From Sulfuritalea sp. (GTDB lineage Bacteria; Pseudomonadota; Gammaproteobacteria; Burkholderiales; Rhodocyclaceae): a DNA stretch of 64,000 bases. The stretch lies in contig JAUXUK010000019.1 of the NCBI GenBank assembly GCA_030680805.1, positions 1-64,000 on the forward strand, given 5' to 3'. Under the pieces are notes generated by a model. The model did not search any database, was not told where the DNA came from, and saw nothing but the letters and a program-made list of their open reading frames with translations. Position numbers and translations under genes: made by a program. Shown one piece after another: positions 3,426 through 60,373 of the stretch; position 1 is the stretch's first letter, and each line of letters opens with the position of its first letter.

Positions 3426-4832
3426 CTATTCGGTGACAATGCCCCAGCGTTTCATGCGGACGTAGAGATTTTGTCGGGGAATGCCGCTCAGGCGCGCGGC
3501 CTCGGACACATTGCCCCCGGCGGTGGCGAGCAGACGTCGAAAATAGTCGCGCTCGAAATCGCCGCGCGCATCCTGATAGGCCAGCGCGGTCGTGGCTGCC
3601 GTTGCGCCGGCGAACTCGGTTCTGATGGACGGCTCACCGCCCGGCAACATATGCAGGGTATCGATCGGGCCGCCCGTGTGGAGCGCCACCGCACGCTCGA
3701 TGCAGTGCTGCAGTTGCCGCACATTGCCCTTCCAGCGGCAGCTTTCCAGCGCCTGCAGGGCAGCGGGCGTGAGCGGCCCGCAGGTCTTGCCGAATTTTGC
3801 GTTGTAAAAATCCAGAAAATGCGTGGCCAGCGGCACGATGTCGCCGGTGCGCTCGCGCAGGGGTGGCATGGTTACCGATACCACCGCGATGCGGTAGTAG
3901 AGGTCTTCCCGAAACCGGCCGGCCTTGACCTCGGCAAGCAGGGGTCGATTGGTGGCGCAGATCAGGCGAAAGTCGGCCTTGCGCGGCTCCGTGCTGCCGA
4001 TGCGGGTGAAGCTGTGGTCCTGCAGCACGCGCAGCAGGTTGCTTTGCAGCTTCGGACTCATGTCGGCGATTTCGTCGAGGAACAGGTTGCCGCCGTGCGC
4101 TTTCTCGAAGTAGCCGGCATTGGCCTGGCCGGCTCCGGTGAAAGCGCCTTTTTCATGGCCGAACAGTAGGCCTTCCAGCAGGGTTTCCGCCAGCCCGCCG
4201 CAATTGACCTCAAGGAAAGGCTTCGTGGCGCGCGTGCTCAGCGCATGGATCATCCTGGCGGCAAGTTCCTTGCCCGTGCCGCTTTCGCCTTCCAGCAGGA
4301 CCGTGGTGTCGAGGCCGGCGACCTGGCGGATCTGGCCGAGCACCCGCTCCATGGCGGGTGACTGGCCGATCACGGCGACTGTGGCGTCGCCCGCGTCAAG
4401 GCGTGCGCGCAGGCCGTCGATCTCGCGGTAGGCGCTGTCCAGTTCCAGCGCCTTGCCGATCACGGCTTCGAGCGATTCGAGGTCTTCGAAAGGTTTGGTC
4501 AGGTAGTCGAAAACGCCTTCGCGCACTGCCGCGACCGCATCGCGGACATCGGCAAAGCCGGTCATCAGGATGCCCACCAGTTTGGGGCGCCGGGCGCGGA
4601 ATTCGCGCAGCAGTTCGATGCCGTTGTCCGCCGGCAATCGCTGGTCCATCAGCACCAGGTTGAAATCCACCTCGGCGAACAGTTTTCGCGCTTCCGCGCC
4701 GTCGGACGCAAGGCTGACCTCGGCGGTCTTGCCGATCAGGCGGTCGATCAGGGTGCGTGTGTAGTGGTCGTCGTCGACCACCAGAACTCGGGGCTGCATC
4801 TTGGTTTTCGGATTGGAGGCAACAACGCTCAT
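3426..4832 (-). CDS. NtrC-family sigma-54-dependent response regulator
   Basis: A 468-residue activator with three domains. The receiver domain (about 15-130) has acidic residues DDD near 20-22, phosphoacceptor Asp near 63 in LMDQRLP, and a KPF motif. The AAA+ domain (about 155-385) has Walker A GESGTGKE, the sigma-54 contact motif GAFTGA and the R-finger region RFREDLYYR. A Fis-type helix-turn-helix (GNVSEAARLSGIPRQNLYVR) closes the protein. It sits just downstream of the histidine kinase gene, so they form one two-component system. ATG 4832 was chosen because it follows the kinase stop by 10 bases; an in-frame ATG at 4799 would lack the same junction. The probable target is the sigma-54 promoter at 3323-3338. 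Confidence 0.93.
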   Translation of the reverse strand: MSVVASNPKTKMQPRVLVVDDDHYTRTLIDRLIGKTAEVSLASDGAEARKLFAEVDFNLVLMDQRLPADNGIELLREFRARRPKLVGILMTGFADVRDAVAAVREGVFDYLTKPFEDLESLEAVIGKALELDSAYREIDGLRARLDAGDATVAVIGQSPAMERVLGQIRQVAGLDTTVLLEGESGTGKELAARMIHALSTRATKPFLEVNCGGLAETLLEGLLFGHEKGAFTGAGQANAGYFEKAHGGNLFLDEIADMSPKLQSNLLRVLQDHSFTRIGSTEPRKADFRLICATNRPLLAEVKAGRFREDLYYRIAVVSVTMPPLRERTGDIVPLATHFLDFYNAKFGKTCGPLTPAALQALESCRWKGNVRQLQHCIERAVALHTGGPIDTLHMLPGGEPSIRTEFAGATAATTALAYQDARGDFERDYFRRLLATAGGNVSEAARLSGIPRQNLYVRMKRWGIVTE

Positions 4833-10721: not shown

Positions 10722-11084
10722 TCAAGGCCCCGTGCCGCCTCGGCTGCGGTCCTTGAAGGAACAGGTCGCGGCGTGGATGTGCCCCGGATAATGCTGCTCG
10801 AAGGTGCGGCAGATGTCCGGCTTGAACAGCCACTGCTGATCCGGCGTGGTGAATAGCCGCGCGTCGATGGGCGATACCTGTTCCGCGTACACCTCGAATA
10901 TCTCGACGCCGGGCGGTGCTATCCGGTTCCTGTCCAGATGCTCGATCAGGCCGCAAATCGTGTCGGAGAAGTAGGACTTGTACTCGTCGCTTTCCTCGAA
11001 CATGCGTATTCGGGCCTCGTAGGTGTAGGGCAGACTCTTGTCGTACTTCGACTTCGGACCGAGAACTTTTTCAAGCAGGCTCAT
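10722..11084 (-). CDS. Conserved hypothetical protein, 120 aa
   Basis: The family is not recognised. The protein begins MSLLEKVLGPKSKYDK, is soluble and mixed in charge, has no signal peptide or membrane segment, and has two Cys in the C-terminal half (DICRTFEQHYPGHIHAATC). The ATG at 11084 is set by a strong GGAGGG five bases upstream that forms part of the hairpin element at 11085-11179. It lies downstream of msrB on the same strand, with the element between them. Codon use looks like that of its neighbours, so it is probably a real, native gene. Confidence 0.65.
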   Translation of the reverse strand: MSLLEKVLGPKSKYDKSLPYTYEARIRMFEESDEYKSYFSDTICGLIEHLDRNRIAPPGVEIFEVYAEQVSPIDARLFTTPDQQWLFKPDICRTFEQHYPGHIHAATCSFKDRSRGGTGP

Positions 11085-11179
11085 AATCCCTCCGCAGGGC
11101 CGCCCCAAGGAGGGACGGTAAATAAACATGGAGCGCAGCGAACCATTGTCGCCCCCTTCCTCGGGAAGGGGGATGGGGG
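11085..11179 (-). promoter_or_regulatory. Composite two-hairpin element, copy B (SD-sequestering leader)
   Basis: The element fills the gap between msrB and the 120-aa gene. Hairpin 1 is a perfect CCCCCTTCC / GGAAGGGGG stem at 11152-11172. A GTTCG box follows near 11138-11146. Hairpin 2 at 11087-11115 pairs TCCCTCC with GGAGGGA around a conserved core of TTGGGGCGGCCCTGC. GGAGGG is the ribosome-binding site of the ATG at 11084, so folding would hide it. Related copies lie at 33872-33970 and 58729-58831. Confidence 0.7.
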
Positions 11180-11243
11180 GCAGGCAGCATCAAGTATCTC
11201 CTTGGCAACAATGCTACTCCAGGAGATCGTCTTGGGCGTGCTT

Positions 11244-11744
11244 TCAGGTTCGCAGCGGGGGCAGGGTTTCGGCTTTCGCAATGAAGCGCAGCGCGACGCC
11301 GTTGTTGCAGTAGCGCTTTCCCGTCGGGCGCGGGCCGTCGTTGAAGACATGGCCGTGATGCCCGCCACAGCGCGCACAGTGGTATTCGGTGCGCGGCAGG
11401 ACGAGCTTGAAATCGGTCGAGGTACCGACCACCTCGGGCAGCGGCTGCCAGAAGCTGGGCCAGCCGGTGCCGCTTTCATACTTGTGGGCGCTGTCGAACA
11501 GCGGCTGGTTGCAGGCGGCGCAAATGAAGGTGCCGACACGCTTCTCGGCGTTGAGCGGACTGCTGCCGGGCGGTTCCGTGCCTTCTTCAAAGAGCACGCG
11601 ATAGGCGTCGGCCGGCAGCAGCTTCTTCCATTCCTGCTTGCTCTTTGCCAGTGGAAAGGAGCCGGCGGCTGTGGCCGAGCCGGCGGGCACCGCCGATGCG
11701 GCGATCAATCCGGAAATGCGGTACATCCAGTGGCGACGGTTCAT
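11244..11744 (-). CDS. msrB: Exported peptide-methionine (R)-S-oxide reductase MsrB
   Basis: A 166-residue protein with an N-terminal export signal (about residues 1-27, with an Arg pair, MNRRHW, that could be read by Tat or Sec) and a full MsrB domain. Zinc ligands are CAAC and CARC; GTGWPSF is the substrate loop; the catalytic Cys lies in RYCNNGVALRF. It reduces methionine-R-sulfoxide in proteins, here probably in the cell envelope. GAGGAGGG precedes the ATG at 11744. It is transcribed away from the sigma-factor operon that starts 142 bp away. Confidence 0.93.
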   Translation of the reverse strand: MNRRHWMYRISGLIAASAVPAGSATAAGSFPLAKSKQEWKKLLPADAYRVLFEEGTEPPGSSPLNAEKRVGTFICAACNQPLFDSAHKYESGTGWPSFWQPLPEVVGTSTDFKLVLPRTEYHCARCGGHHGHVFNDGPRPTGKRYCNNGVALRFIAKAETLPPLRT

Positions 11745-11886
11745 CGTGCCCTCCTCGTAACTTTCAATTGATTGACTCCATGCCACTTGGTCTGGCCGGC
11801 CGCGGTATTCCTTACAGGTCGATTGAGTTTGCCGATGCGCAGCATCATGAGTCAAAATGCAGCCATCTGCCTGGCAATCGAGCTTC

Positions 11887-12465
11887 ATGGAACCCGATCT
11901 CCAACAAGAACTGAACGCGCTGCGCCCCGACTTGCTGCGGTTTGCGCGCCTGCAACTGCGCGACGCGGGGGCTGCCGAGGACGCGGTGCAGGAAACCATG
12001 CTGGCGGCGCTGACGGGCAGTCATCGCTTCGAAAGCCGCTCGTCCTACAAGACATGGCTGATCTCGATCCTGCGCAACAAGATCATCGACATCATTCGTG
12101 GTCAGAGCCGCGAAATTGCCGCGACCTCGCTGGCCGACGACGATGCCGGGGACGATCTGCTGATGGAATCCCTGTTCGATCGGCGCGGTCACTGGCAGCC
12201 CGAGGCGAAGCCCGGGCGCTGGGCCGATCCGGAGGCCTCTTTCGAGCAGCAACAGTTCTGGCGAGTATTCGAGGCCTGCCTCGATCACCTGCCTGCAAAG
12301 ACTGCCCGCGTCTTCATGATGCGCGAGATCCTCGGCCTCGAGACAGGCGAGATCTGTAAGGAAACCGGCATCAGTTCGTCCAATTGCTGGGTGGTGCTGC
12401 ATCGTGCCAGAACAGGCCTGCGCATCTGTCTTGAAACCAAATGGTTCGCCGGAGCGGGAAGCTGA
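11887..12465 (+). CDS. ECF-type RNA polymerase sigma factor
   Basis: A 192-residue sigma-70 family protein with region 2 (RFARLQLRDAGAAEDAVQET ..., ending at SYKTWLISILRNKIIDIIR) and region 4 (LPAKTARVFMMREILGLETG then EICKETGISSSNCWVVLHRAR). The SSSNCWVVLHRAR helix is typical of the ECF group that pairs with short zinc-finger anti-sigma proteins, and such a gene follows one base later. The ATG at 11887 has only a weak Shine-Dalgarno. It heads a run of seven tightly spaced genes ending with glpB, which suggests that it controls, or is expressed with, the glycerol-3-phosphate oxidation genes. Confidence 0.92.
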   Translation: MEPDLQQELNALRPDLLRFARLQLRDAGAAEDAVQETMLAALTGSHRFESRSSYKTWLISILRNKIIDIIRGQSREIAATSLADDDAGDDLLMESLFDRRGHWQPEAKPGRWADPEASFEQQQFWRVFEACLDHLPAKTARVFMMREILGLETGEICKETGISSSNCWVVLHRARTGLRICLETKWFAGAGS

Positions 12466-32848: not shown

Positions 32849-33871
32849 CTAACCGCCCCGCTGCTTCCCGCCCGCCTTCGGTGCCGCAGCATACATCCGC
32901 GTCATCTTCGCCGCCTCGTCGGCAACGCGCTGGCGCAGGTCGGGCGGGGCCAGCACTTCGACGTCGGCGCCGAACTTGAGGATGTCCATGATCAGTTCGC
33001 GATGGTCGGCGTAGGGGAATTCGAGCAGCCAGGAACCGTCCGCATCAAAGCTGCCCTTCTGCTTCGGGTGCCAGGTCTCCTGCGCCACCCAGCGCGCGCG
33101 CTTGGGCGTGAAGCGCAGCTTGGCGTGCTGCAGGCGGCGCCCGGAGAAGATGCCGTAGCCGGGGCCGAGCACTTCGTCGAGGCTGCGATGCGAGACTTCG
33201 CGCGCCTTCCGCTCGATCACCGTGGCCTCGCGGATGGAATCGAGGGCGAAGTTGCGGATGTCGTTGCGCAGGTGGCACCAGGCGTCGAGGTACCAGTTCT
33301 CGCGGTAATACACCAGGCGCAGCGGCGAGACTTCGCGCTCGGTGGTCTCGCCGCTGCCGCGGGCGAAGTAGGTGATGGCGAGGCGCTTGCGGCGCAGGAG
33401 CGCGGCGCCGACTTTCTCGAAATGCGCGAGCTTGAGGTCGCGCTTGCCCAAACCGACGATCAGCACGCGGCGGCGGATTTCCTCGGCGGTGTTTTCGGCG
33501 CTGCCGAGCAGGCTGTTGAGGCGCGCGATCAGCGGCTGGATGTGGGGCGTGAGGATGCCGCCGGGGTCGAGGTCGGTCAGCAGGTGCTGCATGGTCAGCA
33601 GCGCATGCACTTCGCCGGAGTTGAACCAGAGGCCGGGCAGTTCGTACTGGGCGCCGCCGTCGGGATGCGGGGTATCGAAGCGGTAGCCGCCGCCAGTTCC
33701 ACCATGGCGATCCCAGACGATGGGCGCGTTGAGCCGGTTGCGCATGTATTCGAGGTCGCGCTTGAGCGTGGCGCGCGAGACTTCCAGTGCCGCCATGAGG
33801 TCGACGAAGGGCACCAGCTTCCGGTCGTGGATCATCTGGTCGATCTTGTAAAAGCGCTCAGTGCGATCCAT
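32849..33871 (-). CDS. WYL-domain transcriptional regulator (YafY-like)
   Basis: A 340-residue regulator. The N-terminal winged helix (FYKIDQMIHDRKLVPFVDLM ... SRATLKRDLEYMR) is of the HTH_11/DeoR type. The central WYL domain (REVSPLRLVYYRENWYLDAWC) and the C-terminal WCX extension (WLLEFPYADHRELIMDILKFG) complete the family layout. WYL proteins sense ligands, often nucleic acids or nucleotides, and some repress defence genes. The ATG at 33871 is set by GGAGGC in the hairpin element upstream. The neighbouring accessory modules make a link to them possible. Confidence 0.9.
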   Translation of the reverse strand: MDRTERFYKIDQMIHDRKLVPFVDLMAALEVSRATLKRDLEYMRNRLNAPIVWDRHGGTGGGYRFDTPHPDGGAQYELPGLWFNSGEVHALLTMQHLLTDLDPGGILTPHIQPLIARLNSLLGSAENTAEEIRRRVLIVGLGKRDLKLAHFEKVGAALLRRKRLAITYFARGSGETTEREVSPLRLVYYRENWYLDAWCHLRNDIRNFALDSIREATVIERKAREVSHRSLDEVLGPGYGIFSGRRLQHAKLRFTPKRARWVAQETWHPKQKGSFDADGSWLLEFPYADHRELIMDILKFGADVEVLAPPDLRQRVADEAAKMTRMYAAAPKAGGKQRGG

Positions 33872-33970
33872 GGTGCCTCCGCAGGGCCGCCCCAAGGAGG
33901 CTTAGCCGGAACTTGAGCGGGCCGAGCCCCCGAACCGTCGTCACCCCCTTCATGGGCAAGGGGGCGCGAG
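33872..33970 (-). promoter_or_regulatory. Composite two-hairpin element, copy C (SD-sequestering leader)
   Basis: It occupies the gap between rsgA and the WYL gene. Hairpin 1 is CCCCCTT / AAGGGGG at 33944-33964 with a 7-base loop. A GGTTCG box follows. Hairpin 2 at 33875-33901 pairs GCCTCC with GGAGGC around the same core as the other copies. The GGAGG is the ribosome-binding site of the ATG at 33871. The outer base pair is G-C here, C-G in copy B and T-A in copy A. Confidence 0.7.
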
Positions 33971-33979
33971 GGAATGTAG

Positions 33980-34831
33980 TCATTGCTCGCTGATGAATTG
34001 GCGGAAATGTTCGAGGCGGCGCGGGTGGATCACGCCACTGGCGACGGCGGCCTTGATCGCGCAGTCCGGTTCGGCCTGGTGCTGGCAGTCGCGAAAGCGG
34101 CACTGGCCGAGGAAGGGGCGGAACTCGGCGAAGCCGAATTCGATTTCCTGCGGCGTCAGGTGCTTGAGGCCGAACTCCTGCAGGCCGGGGCTGTCGATCA
34201 GCGTTCCTCCGTTCGGCAGGCGATAGAGCCGAGCGTAAGTGGTGGTGTGCTTGCCCGAATCAAGCGCAGTCGACAACTCGCGGGTGGGCGCCGCCGCACC
34301 GGGCACCAGGGCGTTGGTCAGGGTGGATTTGCCCATGCCGGATTGGCCGACCAGCACCGAACACTCTCCCGCCAGTAGCGGCAGCAGCGGCGAGGCGTCG
34401 AGCCTGGCCGAAAGTTCGACGACGCGGCAGCCGAGCGCGATGAAGGGCGCCAGCAGCTTGCGCGCGGCGGGCAGCGCGGCGGCGAGGTCGCTCTTGTTGA
34501 GGACGATGGTGGTGTGCAGGCCCTGATGCTCGGCGGCGACCAGCGCGCGGCTGAGCAGCATGTCGGAAAACGACGGATCGGTGGCGACCACCAGCAGCAA
34601 TTGCGTGGCGTTGGCCGCGATCAGTTTTTCGCGGTAGGCGTCGCTGCGATAGAGCAGGGTGCGCCGCGGCCCATGGCCGGTGATCTGCCCGTCCGGCGTG
34701 AGTTCGACTTCGTCGCCGACGGCAAAGGGGCTTTTCTTGCCGCGCGGATAGCCGGTGGCGAGGCTGCCGTCGCCGAGTTCGATCTCGTAGTGACGACCGA
34801 AGGCGGCGACGATGATGCCGTGCTTGTTCAA
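33980..34831 (-). CDS. rsgA: Ribosome small-subunit-dependent GTPase RsgA
   Basis: A 283-residue circularly permuted GTPase. The N-terminal OB fold (IIVAAFGRHYEIEL) is followed by G4 (NKSD), G1 (GQSGMGKST) and G3 (DSPGLQEF), in the permuted order. The C-terminal zinc knuckle is CRFRDCQHQAEPDC. It checks maturation of the 30S subunit by GTP hydrolysis. The gene follows the pterin dehydratase gene by six bases and is probably in one operon with it and the M48 peptidase. Confidence 0.95.
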   Translation of the reverse strand: MNKHGIIVAAFGRHYEIELGDGSLATGYPRGKKSPFAVGDEVELTPDGQITGHGPRRTLLYRSDAYREKLIAANATQLLLVVATDPSFSDMLLSRALVAAEHQGLHTTIVLNKSDLAAALPAARKLLAPFIALGCRVVELSARLDASPLLPLLAGECSVLVGQSGMGKSTLTNALVPGAAAPTRELSTALDSGKHTTTYARLYRLPNGGTLIDSPGLQEFGLKHLTPQEIEFGFAEFRPFLGQCRFRDCQHQAEPDCAIKAAVASGVIHPRRLEHFRQFISEQ

Positions 34832-54561: not shown

Positions 54562-55368
54562 ATGTCACGAATCCAGAAAACATTCACATCCCTTGCCGCG
54601 CAAGGCCGCAAGGCCCTTATCCCCTTCATTACCGCCGGCGATCCTGATCCGGACCTGAGCTTGCCGCTGATGCGGGCACTGGTTGCGGGTGGCGCCGACA
54701 TCATCGAGCTCGGCGTACCGTTTTCGGATCCGATGGCCGATGGACCGACCATCCAGCGGGCGTCGGAAAGAGCCTTGGCGCATGGCATGAGCCTACGCCG
54801 CGTGCTGGCGCTGGTGAGTGAATTCCGCAAGGAGAACGCGACGACGCCGGTGGTCCTGATGGGCTACGCCAATCCGGTGGAAGCCTATGGCGTCGCAGCC
54901 TTCGCCCGCGATGCGAGCGAGGCCGGGGTCGATGGTGTGCTGGTGGTCGATTATCCGCCGGAGGAATGCGCCGATTTCTCTGCCGTGATGAAGCGGGCGG
55001 GAATCGATCCGATTTTCCTGCTGGCCCCGACCTCCACAGAAAAGCGCTACGACGAAGTCGCGCTGATCGGCAGCGGCTACATTTATTATGTTTCGCTCAA
55101 GGGCGTGACGGGTTCCGGTAATCTCGATCTCGACGAAGTGGCGCGGCGCATACCGCTGATCCGCGAGAAAGTTGGGATGCCGGTCGGCGTAGGCTTCGGC
55201 ATTCGTGACGGGGCCACCGCCGCACGCATCGCAGCAGTAGCGGATGCGGTCGTGATCGGTAGCAGGATCATCGAGGAAATTGAGAATGGTGATGCCGCTA
55301 CGGCACCGCAGCGGGTCACGACATTCTTGAGTGGAATCCGCGCCGCAATGGATGGAGAAAAGCCATGA
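54562..55368 (+). CDS. trpA: Tryptophan synthase alpha subunit
   Basis: A 268-residue TIM-barrel enzyme. [35 protein letters not shown] (catalytic Glu) and [13 protein letters not shown] are signatures. It releases indole from indole-glycerol phosphate and passes it to TrpB. Its stop overlaps the accD ATG (ATGA), so tryptophan and fatty-acid genes share the transcript. Confidence 0.97.
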
Positions 55369-58222: not shown

Positions 58223-58714
58223 ATGACCGCGTTCGATTACGCCGTGCTGACGGTCGTTGCGGCGTCGGTGCTGTTGGGTTTGTGGCGCGGCGTGGTGAGC
58301 GAGATTCTGGCGCTGGCGGCTTGGGTGGCGGCGTTTTTTGTGGCGCGCGCCGAGGCGTCGGAGGTGGCGGTTTGGCTGACCGGACAAATCGCCGAACCGG
58401 GCATGCGGCTGGCTGCGGCTTATGTGTTGATCTTTGTCGGGGTATTGCTGCTGTTCGCAATTGCGCGCATGCTGATTTCCCTGATGCTGAAGGCGGTGGG
58501 TTTGGGATTGCTGGACCGCTTGCTGGGCGCTGCCTTTGGCGTCTTGCGCGGAGTTCTGGTGGTATGGGTGGCAGTGCTGGTGGCGGGCATGACGCCGCTG
58601 CCCAAGACAGACTGGTGGCGTGATGCGATACTGTCGCCGCCGCTGGAAACTGCGGTGATTGCGGCAAAACCCTGGTTGCCGGCGGATGCGTCAAAACGGA
58701 TTCGGTTTCGATAG
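58223..58714 (+). CDS. cvpA: CvpA family membrane protein
   Basis: A 163-residue protein with four predicted helices. FDYAVLTVVAASVLLGLWRG and EILALAAWVAAFFVARAEA are the typical start; LLDRLLGAAFGVLRGVLVVWV is the third box. It is needed for colicin V production in E. coli and is linked to envelope stress and purine metabolism by its constant position before purF. A two-hairpin element lies between it and purF. Confidence 0.93.
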   Translation: MTAFDYAVLTVVAASVLLGLWRGVVSEILALAAWVAAFFVARAEASEVAVWLTGQIAEPGMRLAAAYVLIFVGVLLLFAIARMLISLMLKAVGLGLLDRLLGAAFGVLRGVLVVWVAVLVAGMTPLPKTDWWRDAILSPPLETAVIAAKPWLPADASKRIRFR

Positions 58715-58728
58715 AGGAAGATGACCAT

Positions 58729-58831
58729 CCCCCTTCCCCCTTCCCGGGGAAGGGGGCGATAATTGTTCGCGGGCGTTGCCCGTTCCATGTTCTGGCTGCT
58801 TCTCCTTGGGGCGGCCCTGCGGAGAAGGACC
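58729..58831 (+). promoter_or_regulatory. Composite two-hairpin element, copy A (SD-sequestering leader of purF)
   Basis: It occupies the cvpA-purF gap. Hairpin 1 pairs CCCCCTTC (58736-58743) with GAAGGGGG (58749-58756). A TTGTTCGC box and a GGGCG/CGTTGCCC region follow. Hairpin 2 at 58799-58827 pairs CTTCTCC with GGAGAAG around the core TTGGGGCGGCCCTGC. GGAG is the ribosome-binding site for the purF ATG at 58832. Folding would hide it; the paired bases differ from copies B and C but keep pairing. Confidence 0.72.
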
Positions 58832-60373
58832 ATGTGCGGAATTCTGGGTGTGGTGGCCACCACACCGGTGAACCAGTTGCTCTACGACGGCCTGCAGGTG
58901 CTGCAGCACCGCGGTCAGGATGCGGCCGGCGTCGCCACCGCCGAAGGTGGGCGTTTCCACATGCACAAGGGTTCCGGCCTGGTGCGCGACGTCTTCCGCA
59001 CCCGCAACATGCGCAGCCTGGTGGGCAACTGGGGCATCGGCCATTGCCGCTATCCCACCGCCGGCTCGGCCGACAACGCCGCCGAGGCGCAGCCCTTCTA
59101 CGTCAATTCCCCCTTCGGCCTGATGCTGGCGCACAACGGCAACCTGACCAATGCCGATCAGTTGAAGCAGGACATGTTCCTGCAGGACTTGCGGCACATG
59201 AATACCAACTCCGATTCGGAGGTGCTGCTCAACGTCCTGGCGCACGAATTGCAGGCCGCTTCGACCAAGTACCAGGTCGATGCCGAGACCATTTTCAAGG
59301 CGGTCGCCGGCGTGCACCGCCGCGTCAAGGGCGCCTATGCCGTGGTGGCGATGATTGCCGGTTACGGACTGCTGGCTTTCCGCGATCCCTATGGCATCCG
59401 TCCGCTGGTGATGGGGCGCAATGAGACCCCGGACGGCATGGAATACATGGTGGCCTCCGAGAGCGTGGCGATCGATACGCTGGGATTCAAGATGCTGCGC
59501 GATGTCGAGCCGGGCGAAGCGGTGCTGATCGACATGCGTGGCAACTTCGTCAGCCGGCAATGCGCCGAGCGCACGCTCCATGCACCCTGCATGTTCGAGT
59601 TTGTCTATCTGGCGCGCCCCGATTCCGTGATGGACGGCATTTCGGTGTACGAAACCCGGGCCAAGATGGGCGACTACCTGGCCGACAAGATCCGCCTGAC
59701 CATGCCGCATCTGGCGATCGATGCGGTGATACCGATTCCGGATTCCAGCCGCCATTCGGCGATGGAACTGGCGGCCCGCCTCAATCTTCCGTATCGCGAA
59801 GGCTTCGTCAAGAACCGCTACATCGGGCGCACCTTCATCATGCCGGGCCAGGCGACGCGGCGCAAATCCGTGCGCCAGAAGCTCAATGCCATCAGCCAGG
59901 AGTTCAAGGGCCGCAACGTGCTGCTGGTGGACGATTCCATCGTGCGCGGCACCACCAGTCGCGAGATCATCATGATGGCGCGCGAAGCCGGCGCGAAGAA
60001 GGTCTATTTCGCCTCCGCCTCGCCGCCGGTGCGCTTTGCCAATGTCTATGGCATCGACATGCCGACGCGCAGCGAACTGATTGCCGCCTTCCGCAATGAC
60101 GAGGAAATCTGTCTCGAGATCGGCGCCGACGCGCTCATCTATCAGGATCTCGATGACCTCAAGGCAGCGGTGCGCTCCATCAATCCGACGGTGACGCAGT
60201 TCGAAACCTCCTGTTTCGACGGCAGCTACATCACCGGCGACGTCACCGCGGCGTACCTGCAGAACATGGAGCACAAGCGTTCTTTGCCTCCCCTGCCGAA
60301 AGTGGATGACCAGGATGGTTTCGACGGACCGGACGGAGAACAACTCGACCTGAATCTGGTGCAGGCGGGATGA
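58832..60373 (+). CDS. purF: Amidophosphoribosyltransferase
   Basis: A 513-residue Ntn-type glutamine amidotransferase. MCGILGVV exposes the N-terminal catalytic Cys after Met removal; QHRGQDAAGVAT and HNGNLTNADQLK mark the glutaminase domain. The PRPP loop is NVLLVDDSIVRGTTSREII. It makes 5-phosphoribosylamine, the first step of purine synthesis. The start is set by the Cys and by GGAGAAGG upstream. metZ starts inside its stop (ATGA). A PurR box was not recognised. Confidence 0.97.
   Translation: MCGILGVVATTPVNQLLYDGLQVLQHRGQDAAGVATAEGGRFHMHKGSGLVRDVFRTRNMRSLVGNWGIGHCRYPTAGSADNAAEAQPFYVNSPFGLMLAHNGNLTNADQLKQDMFLQDLRHMNTNSDSEVLLNVLAHELQAASTKYQVDAETIFKAVAGVHRRVKGAYAVVAMIAGYGLLAFRDPYGIRPLVMGRNETPDGMEYMVASESVAIDTLGFKMLRDVEPGEAVLIDMRGNFVSRQCAERTLHAPCMFEFVYLARPDSVMDGISVYETRAKMGDYLADKIRLTMPHLAIDAVIPIPDSSRHSAMELAARLNLPYREGFVKNRYIGRTFIMPGQATRRKSVRQKLNAISQEFKGRNVLLVDDSIVRGTTSREIIMMAREAGAKKVYFASASPPVRFANVYGIDMPTRSELIAAFRNDEEICLEIGADALIYQDLDDLKAAVRSINPTVTQFETSCFDGSYITGDVTAAYLQNMEHKRSLPPLPKVDDQDGFDGPDGEQLDLNLVQAG

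Follow-up and report, generated by a model that had tools for sequence, protein, structure and literature searches.

The repeat analysed here is a non-autonomous mobile element of about 105-120 bp that mainly occupies tight junctions between co-directional genes, often NTGA overlaps of a stop codon with the following start codon. Our preferred reading, to which we give a probability of roughly 0.75, is that of a BRE-like mobile mini-cistron of MIRU type, which would sit at operon junctions, bridge gene to gene by re-initiation and cost its host little. What the data show directly is the copy number, the empty sites, occurrence in both orientations, the statistics of frame and overlaps, enrichment of Shine-Dalgarno sequences, peptide conservation that is weak at most, and pairing of the hairpin arms.

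A multi-copy family of structured repeats

The window, i.e. the whole 64,000-nucleotide stretch of DNA that was analysed, contains three copies (Table 1). The first-pass annotation had reported three intergenic copies, each in the sense of its downstream gene, and the sequence check agrees on place and orientation. The constant core likewise holds: an exact 15-nt core, TTGGGGCGGCCCTGC, lies at 11094-11108 (-), 33881-33895 (-) and 58806-58820 (+), with downstream starts 9, 9 and 11 nt past it. Two hairpins per copy had been proposed. The consensus fold of 47 copies contains two helices only, whereas the fold of the purF copy adds a third, short hairpin; this element probably starts at about 58721 rather than 58729. 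The Shine-Dalgarno sequence of purF lies inside the right arm of hairpin 3 (58821-58827). Folding energy of the three copies alone is unimpressive (z -2.76, -0.28 and -1.77), and allowing up to 3 mismatches gives no excess of cores in the window (5 matches vs 6.63 expected).

Table 1. Copies of the element, their parts and neighbouring genes in the window
Feature	Position	Strand	Basis or remark
120-aa protein, downstream of the 11085 copy	10722..11084	-	no Pfam match at E 0.001
Sense copy between SelR (msrB-like) gene and unknown 120-aa gene	11085..11190	-	
ORF of the 11085 copy	ATG 11190 to 11071	-	overlaps downstream start by 14 nt
SelR-domain gene, upstream neighbour of the 11085 copy	11244..11999	-	Pfam
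WYL/WCX regulator, downstream neighbour of the WYL copy	32849..33871	-	Pfam
Sense copy between rsgA and WYL regulator	33872..33983	-	
Mini-ORF of the WYL copy	33983 to 33858	-	ATGA overlap with rsgA stop at 33983; overlaps WYL start
rsgA GTPase, upstream neighbour of the WYL copy	33980..34831	-	Pfam
ATGA overlap of trpA stop and accD start (empty site)	55365..55368	+	Pfam Trp_syntA, Carboxyl_trans
cvpA (Colicin_V), upstream of the purF copy	58223..58714	+	Pfam
Sense copy between cvpA and purF	58721..58831	+	empty sites in L052, L055
Mini-ORF of the purF copy, truncated, MTIPLPPSRGRGR*	58721-58762	+	
Hairpin 1, purF copy	58729..58756	+	folds and pair counts
Hairpin 2, purF copy, short	58769..58783	+	single-copy fold; absent from 47-copy consensus fold
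Hairpin 3, purF copy	58799..58827	+	folds and pair counts
Hairpin 3, left arm	58799-58805	+	
Hairpin 3, constant core	58806-58820	+	
Hairpin 3, right arm	58821-58827	+	
purF (glutamine amidotransferase + Pribosyltran), downstream of the purF copy	58832..60373	+	Pfam

The exact core occurs seven times in the own genome, its reversed pattern not once. It is present in 34 of 61 genomes, a set in which the reversed control matched twice, once in G011 and once in G016. A search of 300 genomes from the wider order found CCTTGGGGCGGCCCNGCGG in 23, the control being zero in every row. A covariance model was built from 47 copies (set A1), three from the window and the others from the genomes searched; since all A1 sequences were chosen for their exact core, invariance of the core within A1 is no result. 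Search with this model, in which 150 candidates per genome were scored and counts are lower bounds, retrieved at least 69 matches with E <= 0.1 in the own genome, at least 43 of them below 1e-6. Three congeneric genomes gave at least 41, at least 63 and at least 91 matches below 1e-6. These searches, together with the empty sites described below, bear out the earlier proposal of a structured, apparently mobile family with many further copies.

Among 50 matches fetched from the own genome, 38 gave a core in the pattern scan; some model matches have none (L201, L206, L208, L212). Core variation among model matches is paired, as in TTGGGGCGGCCC versus TTCGGGCGGCCG. A shorter related form, called type B (GCCCCCACGC ... 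GCTGCCCCCCGAGGGGGC ... arm-core-arm), has the 3' end in common with type A of the window and is also found in the own genome (L216, L219). Type B matched 12 records of the plasmid collection, among them Azoarcus and Acidovorax, and gave no match against phages. No match was obtained with blastn of one type A copy against the plasmid collection, nor with tblastn of one mini-ORF peptide against plasmids. Rfam at gathering score found nothing in the window and nothing over an element in 14 loci. The sole Rfam match in these loci is 5_ureB_sRNA at L128:4213-4495 (119.3 bits), with a copy of the element nearby at 4645-4768.

Several peculiarities of individual copies were noted. In G027, a subfamily of 15 rows carries the TTCGGGCGGCCG core (loci L271, L272, L282, L283, L286, L289, L292, L294-L296, L298, L300, L301 and L303); where orientation is listed, it is mostly antisense to the flanking genes, L294 being sense. 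A second sequence, probably another dispersed hairpin element (CCCACGGC...GCACAGCC...GCGGAGCAGTGCTCCGCGAAACCCTGCC), is nested in the hairpin 1 region of several copies (L196, L197, L198, L202, L207, L209 and L210 in the own genome; L020, L048, L049 and L129). Two further copies of the own genome, L204 and L205, contain a different nested insert (ACGCAGTTTCAGTGCAGGCTAA...GCGGCCGAAACTAAAA). In locus L345 (G330), three type B copies lie within about 1.7 kb between genes that by eye resemble a general secretion (gsp) operon.

Insertion at co-directional junctions

Genomic context and reading frames were analysed for 123 copies from four genomes, each of which matched the core pattern, passed a C-run test and formed 4 or more of the 9 arm pairs. 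They derive from 50 loci of 69 matches in the own genome (G000), 10 loci of 63 in G025, 20 + 10 for the 41 matches of G002, and, for the 91 matches of G027, 60 stretches and 10 loci, some of which overlap. The copies fetched come from the better-scoring part of the matches listed, and the context counts describe these copies rather than all model matches. Gene starts were taken from a home-made caller favouring ATG.

Between co-directional genes, 58 copies lie in sense and 54 in antisense orientation; 4 are in coding sequence and 7 elsewhere. Co-directional placement (112:6) exceeds that of gene pairs in the window (52:13, Fisher p 0.004). The downstream start is found 6-14 nt beyond the core in 54 of the 58 sense copies. 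Among the 54 antisense copies, 39 have their core at a distance of 5-10 nt from the upstream gene's stop codon.

Flanks of 213 copies were blasted against all collected loci. Clear empty sites were present among the 226 candidate pairs (a number that includes self and tandem matches) and correspond to an insert of about 105 bp. The purF junction lacks the insert in L055 and L052, where it reads TTTCGATAGAGGAAGACCATG and TTTCGATAGAGGACGACCATG. The trpA-accD junction, empty in the window, contains in L008, L052 and L055 an ATGA at the upstream stop, 103 bases and the ATGA of accD, with a 36-codon ORF between. In L065 the upstream stop of this junction is GTGA, and the ATG-only scan gave no such ORF.

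Tandem arrays of 2-6 copies occur in several genomes, and some copies lie inside coding sequence. Tandem periods of 113 bp (L158, L041) and 86 bp (L069) fit the ATGA-to-ATGA period. Other periods (60, 81, 82, 84, 87, 91, 94, 108 and 111) are not 2 mod 3; these include two 108-bp pairs in the congener G027. The same junction may carry different arms in different genomes (L025/L230; L061/L223; L108/L117/L166/L224), pointing to preferred junctions that were entered more than once. A target duplication extending beyond NTGA is unsupported when each locus contributes one copy, though a looser test hinted at one.

No transposase or donor was found for the element. With REP/RAYT and other IS200/IS605-derived repeats, as treated in PMC2817692, it has in common the abundance of small hairpin repeats between genes. 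No GTAG box of REP type was noticed at the ends of the element. The own genome (86% complete) yielded only one Y1_Tnp match and, unlike the REP/RAYT arrangement, there is no core in its 3.3-kb locus. A RAYT as mover was rejected, as this single Y1 transposase carries a different repeat. In its locus (L220; G000 contig C1, about 3465-3797) two identical 70-bp tandem copies of that repeat precede the transposase. An inverted 20-nt part, 85% complementary, follows downstream, and the whole is perhaps the transposase's own REP-like element.

Pairing of the hairpin arms

Concerted changes in the outer stem, seen by the first-pass annotation in three copies, were confirmed in the alignment of 47. 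Pairs are formed in 94.3% of cells versus 83.0% after shuffling, both-sided changes affect 108 cells versus 32.3, and the covariation score is 0.308 versus 0.102; none of 500 shuffles reached any of the three measures. When the partner is slid by 1-3 columns, the score drops to 0.063-0.109. RNAalifold and pair counts agree on two conserved helices. Of the outer 8 pairs in the outer stem of the 3' hairpin, 7 show changes in both partners. Arms also match their own partner much more closely than they match arms of other copies: 7.89 vs 3.63 +/- 0.28 in the own genome (n=37), 7.65 vs 3.65 +/- 0.22 in G027 (n=57) and 7.78 vs 4.02 +/- 0.34 in G002 (n=27), in a test with no arm-pairing filter and with orientations pooled.

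This covariation had been taken as a sign of translational control, exerted by a leader whose 3' hairpin hides the Shine-Dalgarno sequence of the downstream gene and which is selected at each gene. Many sense copies do have the Shine-Dalgarno sequence as their right arm and its complement as their left arm; strong covariation between loci and the regular distance from core to start codon are also what such a leader would display. About half of the copies are antisense, however, and their arms pair as well, although the host Shine-Dalgarno sequence is absent there (7.31 vs a null of 3.95 for antisense and 8.45 vs 4.96 for sense copies, all pre-filtered for at least 4 of 9 pairs). Antisense arms adjoin the stop codon of the upstream gene. 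In that position they cannot hide the Shine-Dalgarno sequence of the host gene that follows, whereas contact with the mini-ORF's own start is conceivable.

Comparison within loci points in the same direction. It covered 93 copies from 31 loci, each with two or more copies after removal of tandem ones. Departures from the consensus are one-sided in 34 of 43 cases, 19 of which break a pair; at purF, for example, the left arms CTCCTCC, CTTCGCC and CTTCACC face a constant GGAGAAG. The remaining 9 are paired double changes, as expected of a selected leader, but some of them, L025 and L230 for instance, give the impression of independent insertions whose arms differ. Between loci, on the contrary, double changes that preserve pairing dominate. 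Because antisense arms pair and within-locus changes are mostly one-sided, the covariation belongs mainly to element lineages, and a leader selected gene by gene is unlikely. We infer that the hairpin serves the element itself, in mobility or spreading or in stability of RNA or DNA. Sense copies may also hide the Shine-Dalgarno sequence, which would agree with coupling, as the stem would be opened by a ribosome translating the mini-ORF.

Reading frame, proposed mechanism and comparable repeats

Regarding the element as a leader only overlooked its reading frame: a mini-ORF with NTGA overlaps to the flanking genes is usual in both orientations. The ORF analysis used 51 of the 58 sense and 40 of the 54 antisense copies, those within position limits. 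An ORF starting with ATG or GTG and ending at the downstream start is present in 39/51 sense and 34/40 antisense copies and missing in 12 and 6 (about a quarter and a seventh, respectively). The stop of these ORFs forms an NTGA overlap with the downstream gene in 33/39 and 29/34 cases, and an overlap of their start with the preceding stop is seen in 24 and 31. With ATG as the only start and an end within -20 to +25 of the downstream start, ORFs number 36/51 and 26/40. As background, -4 spacing is seen in 5 of 52 co-directional gene pairs of the window.

The frame agrees with that of the downstream TGA in 31/34 and 23/24 cases (p 3e-12 and 2e-10 against one third), and each of the genomes tested obeys this rule by itself (p 0.012 to 1.4e-9). 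Because copies inherit their length, they are not independent trials in these statistics. The distance from NTGA to NTGA is 2 mod 3 in 22/25 sense (107-122 bp) and 29/29 antisense copies (110-122 bp), over several lengths. A strong Shine-Dalgarno sequence precedes the downstream start in 28/51 and 25/40 copies, compared with 9/64 genes of the window.

Maintenance of the frame over several lengths and in both orientations, the NTGA overlaps at both sides and the excess of Shine-Dalgarno sequences argue against a plain REP/MITE-like repeat, whose intergenic placement would be due to purifying selection and whose frames and Shine-Dalgarno sites would be by-products. We consider such a repeat improbable, although it would account for mobile, tandem and nested copies, for some copies within coding sequence and for the small degree of peptide conservation. 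Differences by codon position are flat (301/279/300 and 525/597/580), and the synonymous share of single-change codons slightly exceeds expectation (0.379 vs 0.315 sense, 0.326 vs 0.304 antisense). The frame is kept and the peptide hardly; some constraint on the peptide is possible, weak at most. A conserved leader peptide (PPWGGPAE or similar) acting as sensor, for instance by polyproline stalling, was rejected on account of the flat codon positions and of copies in which the core falls in a different frame (L175, L182). A Pfam search of three mini-ORF peptides also gave no match. The same peptide recurs in many sense copies and the small synonymous excess remains, but a sensor peptide is very improbable.

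No more credible are arms written from the target at insertion, by guide pairing or snap-back copying, so that the stem records the target: the left flank of type A resembles the right arm (6.45 vs 4.99 +/- 0.14; n=95, orthologues and tandems included; gltB-gltD and L066 are examples), but with one copy per locus and NTGA excluded the signal is non-significant (sense 4.23 vs 4.05 +/- 0.14, 29/300 shuffles as high; antisense 3.91 vs 3.73 +/- 0.12, 24/300), and in G027 7 of the 15 rows with the TTCGGGCGGCCG core have identical arms GGCGCCCC/GGGGCGC (two of the 7 being one tandem pair), and this reading too was rejected.

The copies of the window, that at purF above all, are imperfect examples of the mini-cistron family. 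The ORF of the purF copy is truncated and the purF start is not ATGA; in several purF orthologues the ORF continues into purF in another frame. ORFs of the WYL and 11085 copies overlap the next start by 14 nt, not 4.

Typically, then, the ATG or GTG of the element often overlaps the stop of the upstream gene, whichever its orientation. A frame of mostly 36-43 codons then traverses the hairpins, its stop usually overlapping the downstream start. Directly ahead of that start there is often a Shine-Dalgarno sequence, supplied by GGAGG in the 3' arm of sense copies and by GGGGGGAGGG at the 5' end of antisense ones. In the mini-cistron reading, ribosomes that terminate and re-initiate could move on from one gene to the next and would unfold the stems on their way, so that insertion would be cheap for the host. 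The constant core and the paired arms on either side of it would be the element's own structure, the arms co-varying between its lineages. From these data we infer that the frame is translated and coupled, that copies survive because they cost little, and that the hairpin plays a part in mobility. The bridge probably works in both orientations. It is a tentative extension, possible rather than probable, that two antiparallel frames and two opposed Shine-Dalgarno sites are under selection, which would let the element enter operons either way round, and that the co-varying terminal hairpin is recognised by a putative mobility system acting on ssDNA or RNA hairpins.

By comparison with its published description, the element is probably a longer relative of BRE (Beta-proteobacterial repeat element), a repeat of about 90 bp from Betaproteobacteria. 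In Hot et al. 2011 (PMC3110155), BRE is described as dispersed and GC-rich, with tandem copies, mostly intergenic and sometimes within genes; mobility is suggested and function left open, and no coding sequence is predicted in the sRNA regions, which include the repeat. Tandem arrays are a feature of our family as well. Type B agrees with this description; its array periods are 80-94 bp, the reported BRE length being 75-91 bp. Azoarcus and Acidovorax, two genera among the type B plasmid matches, appear in the BRE table; further genera named for BRE are Bordetella, Polaromonas, Delftia, Rhodoferax and Verminephrobacter. Outside coding sequence lie 119 of our 123 copies, nearly all of type A; L150 and L162 were judged intragenic by reading. 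Type A of the window differs from BRE in its length of about 105-120 bp, and shares with type B mainly the arm-core-arm end. Our literature search found no paper with a mini-cistron or hairpin anatomy of BRE.

The working principle would be that of MIRU (mycobacterial interspersed repetitive units). A review (PMC12548453) portrays these as short, apparently mobile repeats that enter genes at their start codons and contain an ORF coupled to the gene at -4 nt, so that the host gene is likely spared. Insertion at start codons is indicated here too, by empty sites and ATGA junctions, and an ORF at -4 is found in 33/51 usable sense and 29/40 usable antisense copies, a likeness in spacing only. MIRU belongs to another phylum and membership is not claimed; our element differs by open frames, NTGA overlaps and Shine-Dalgarno sequences in both orientations, and by a constant core with co-varying arms.

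The analysis provides anatomy and a testable role for a probable relative of a betaproteobacterial repeat that was described without function, and MIRU-like entry into operons would now be met in another phylum. There is also a warning in these data: strong covariation over dispersed copies can stem from a repeat's own biology and not from regulation of each downstream gene. For the genus, our results suggest that start-codon neighbourhoods of many genes have been remodelled by insertion.
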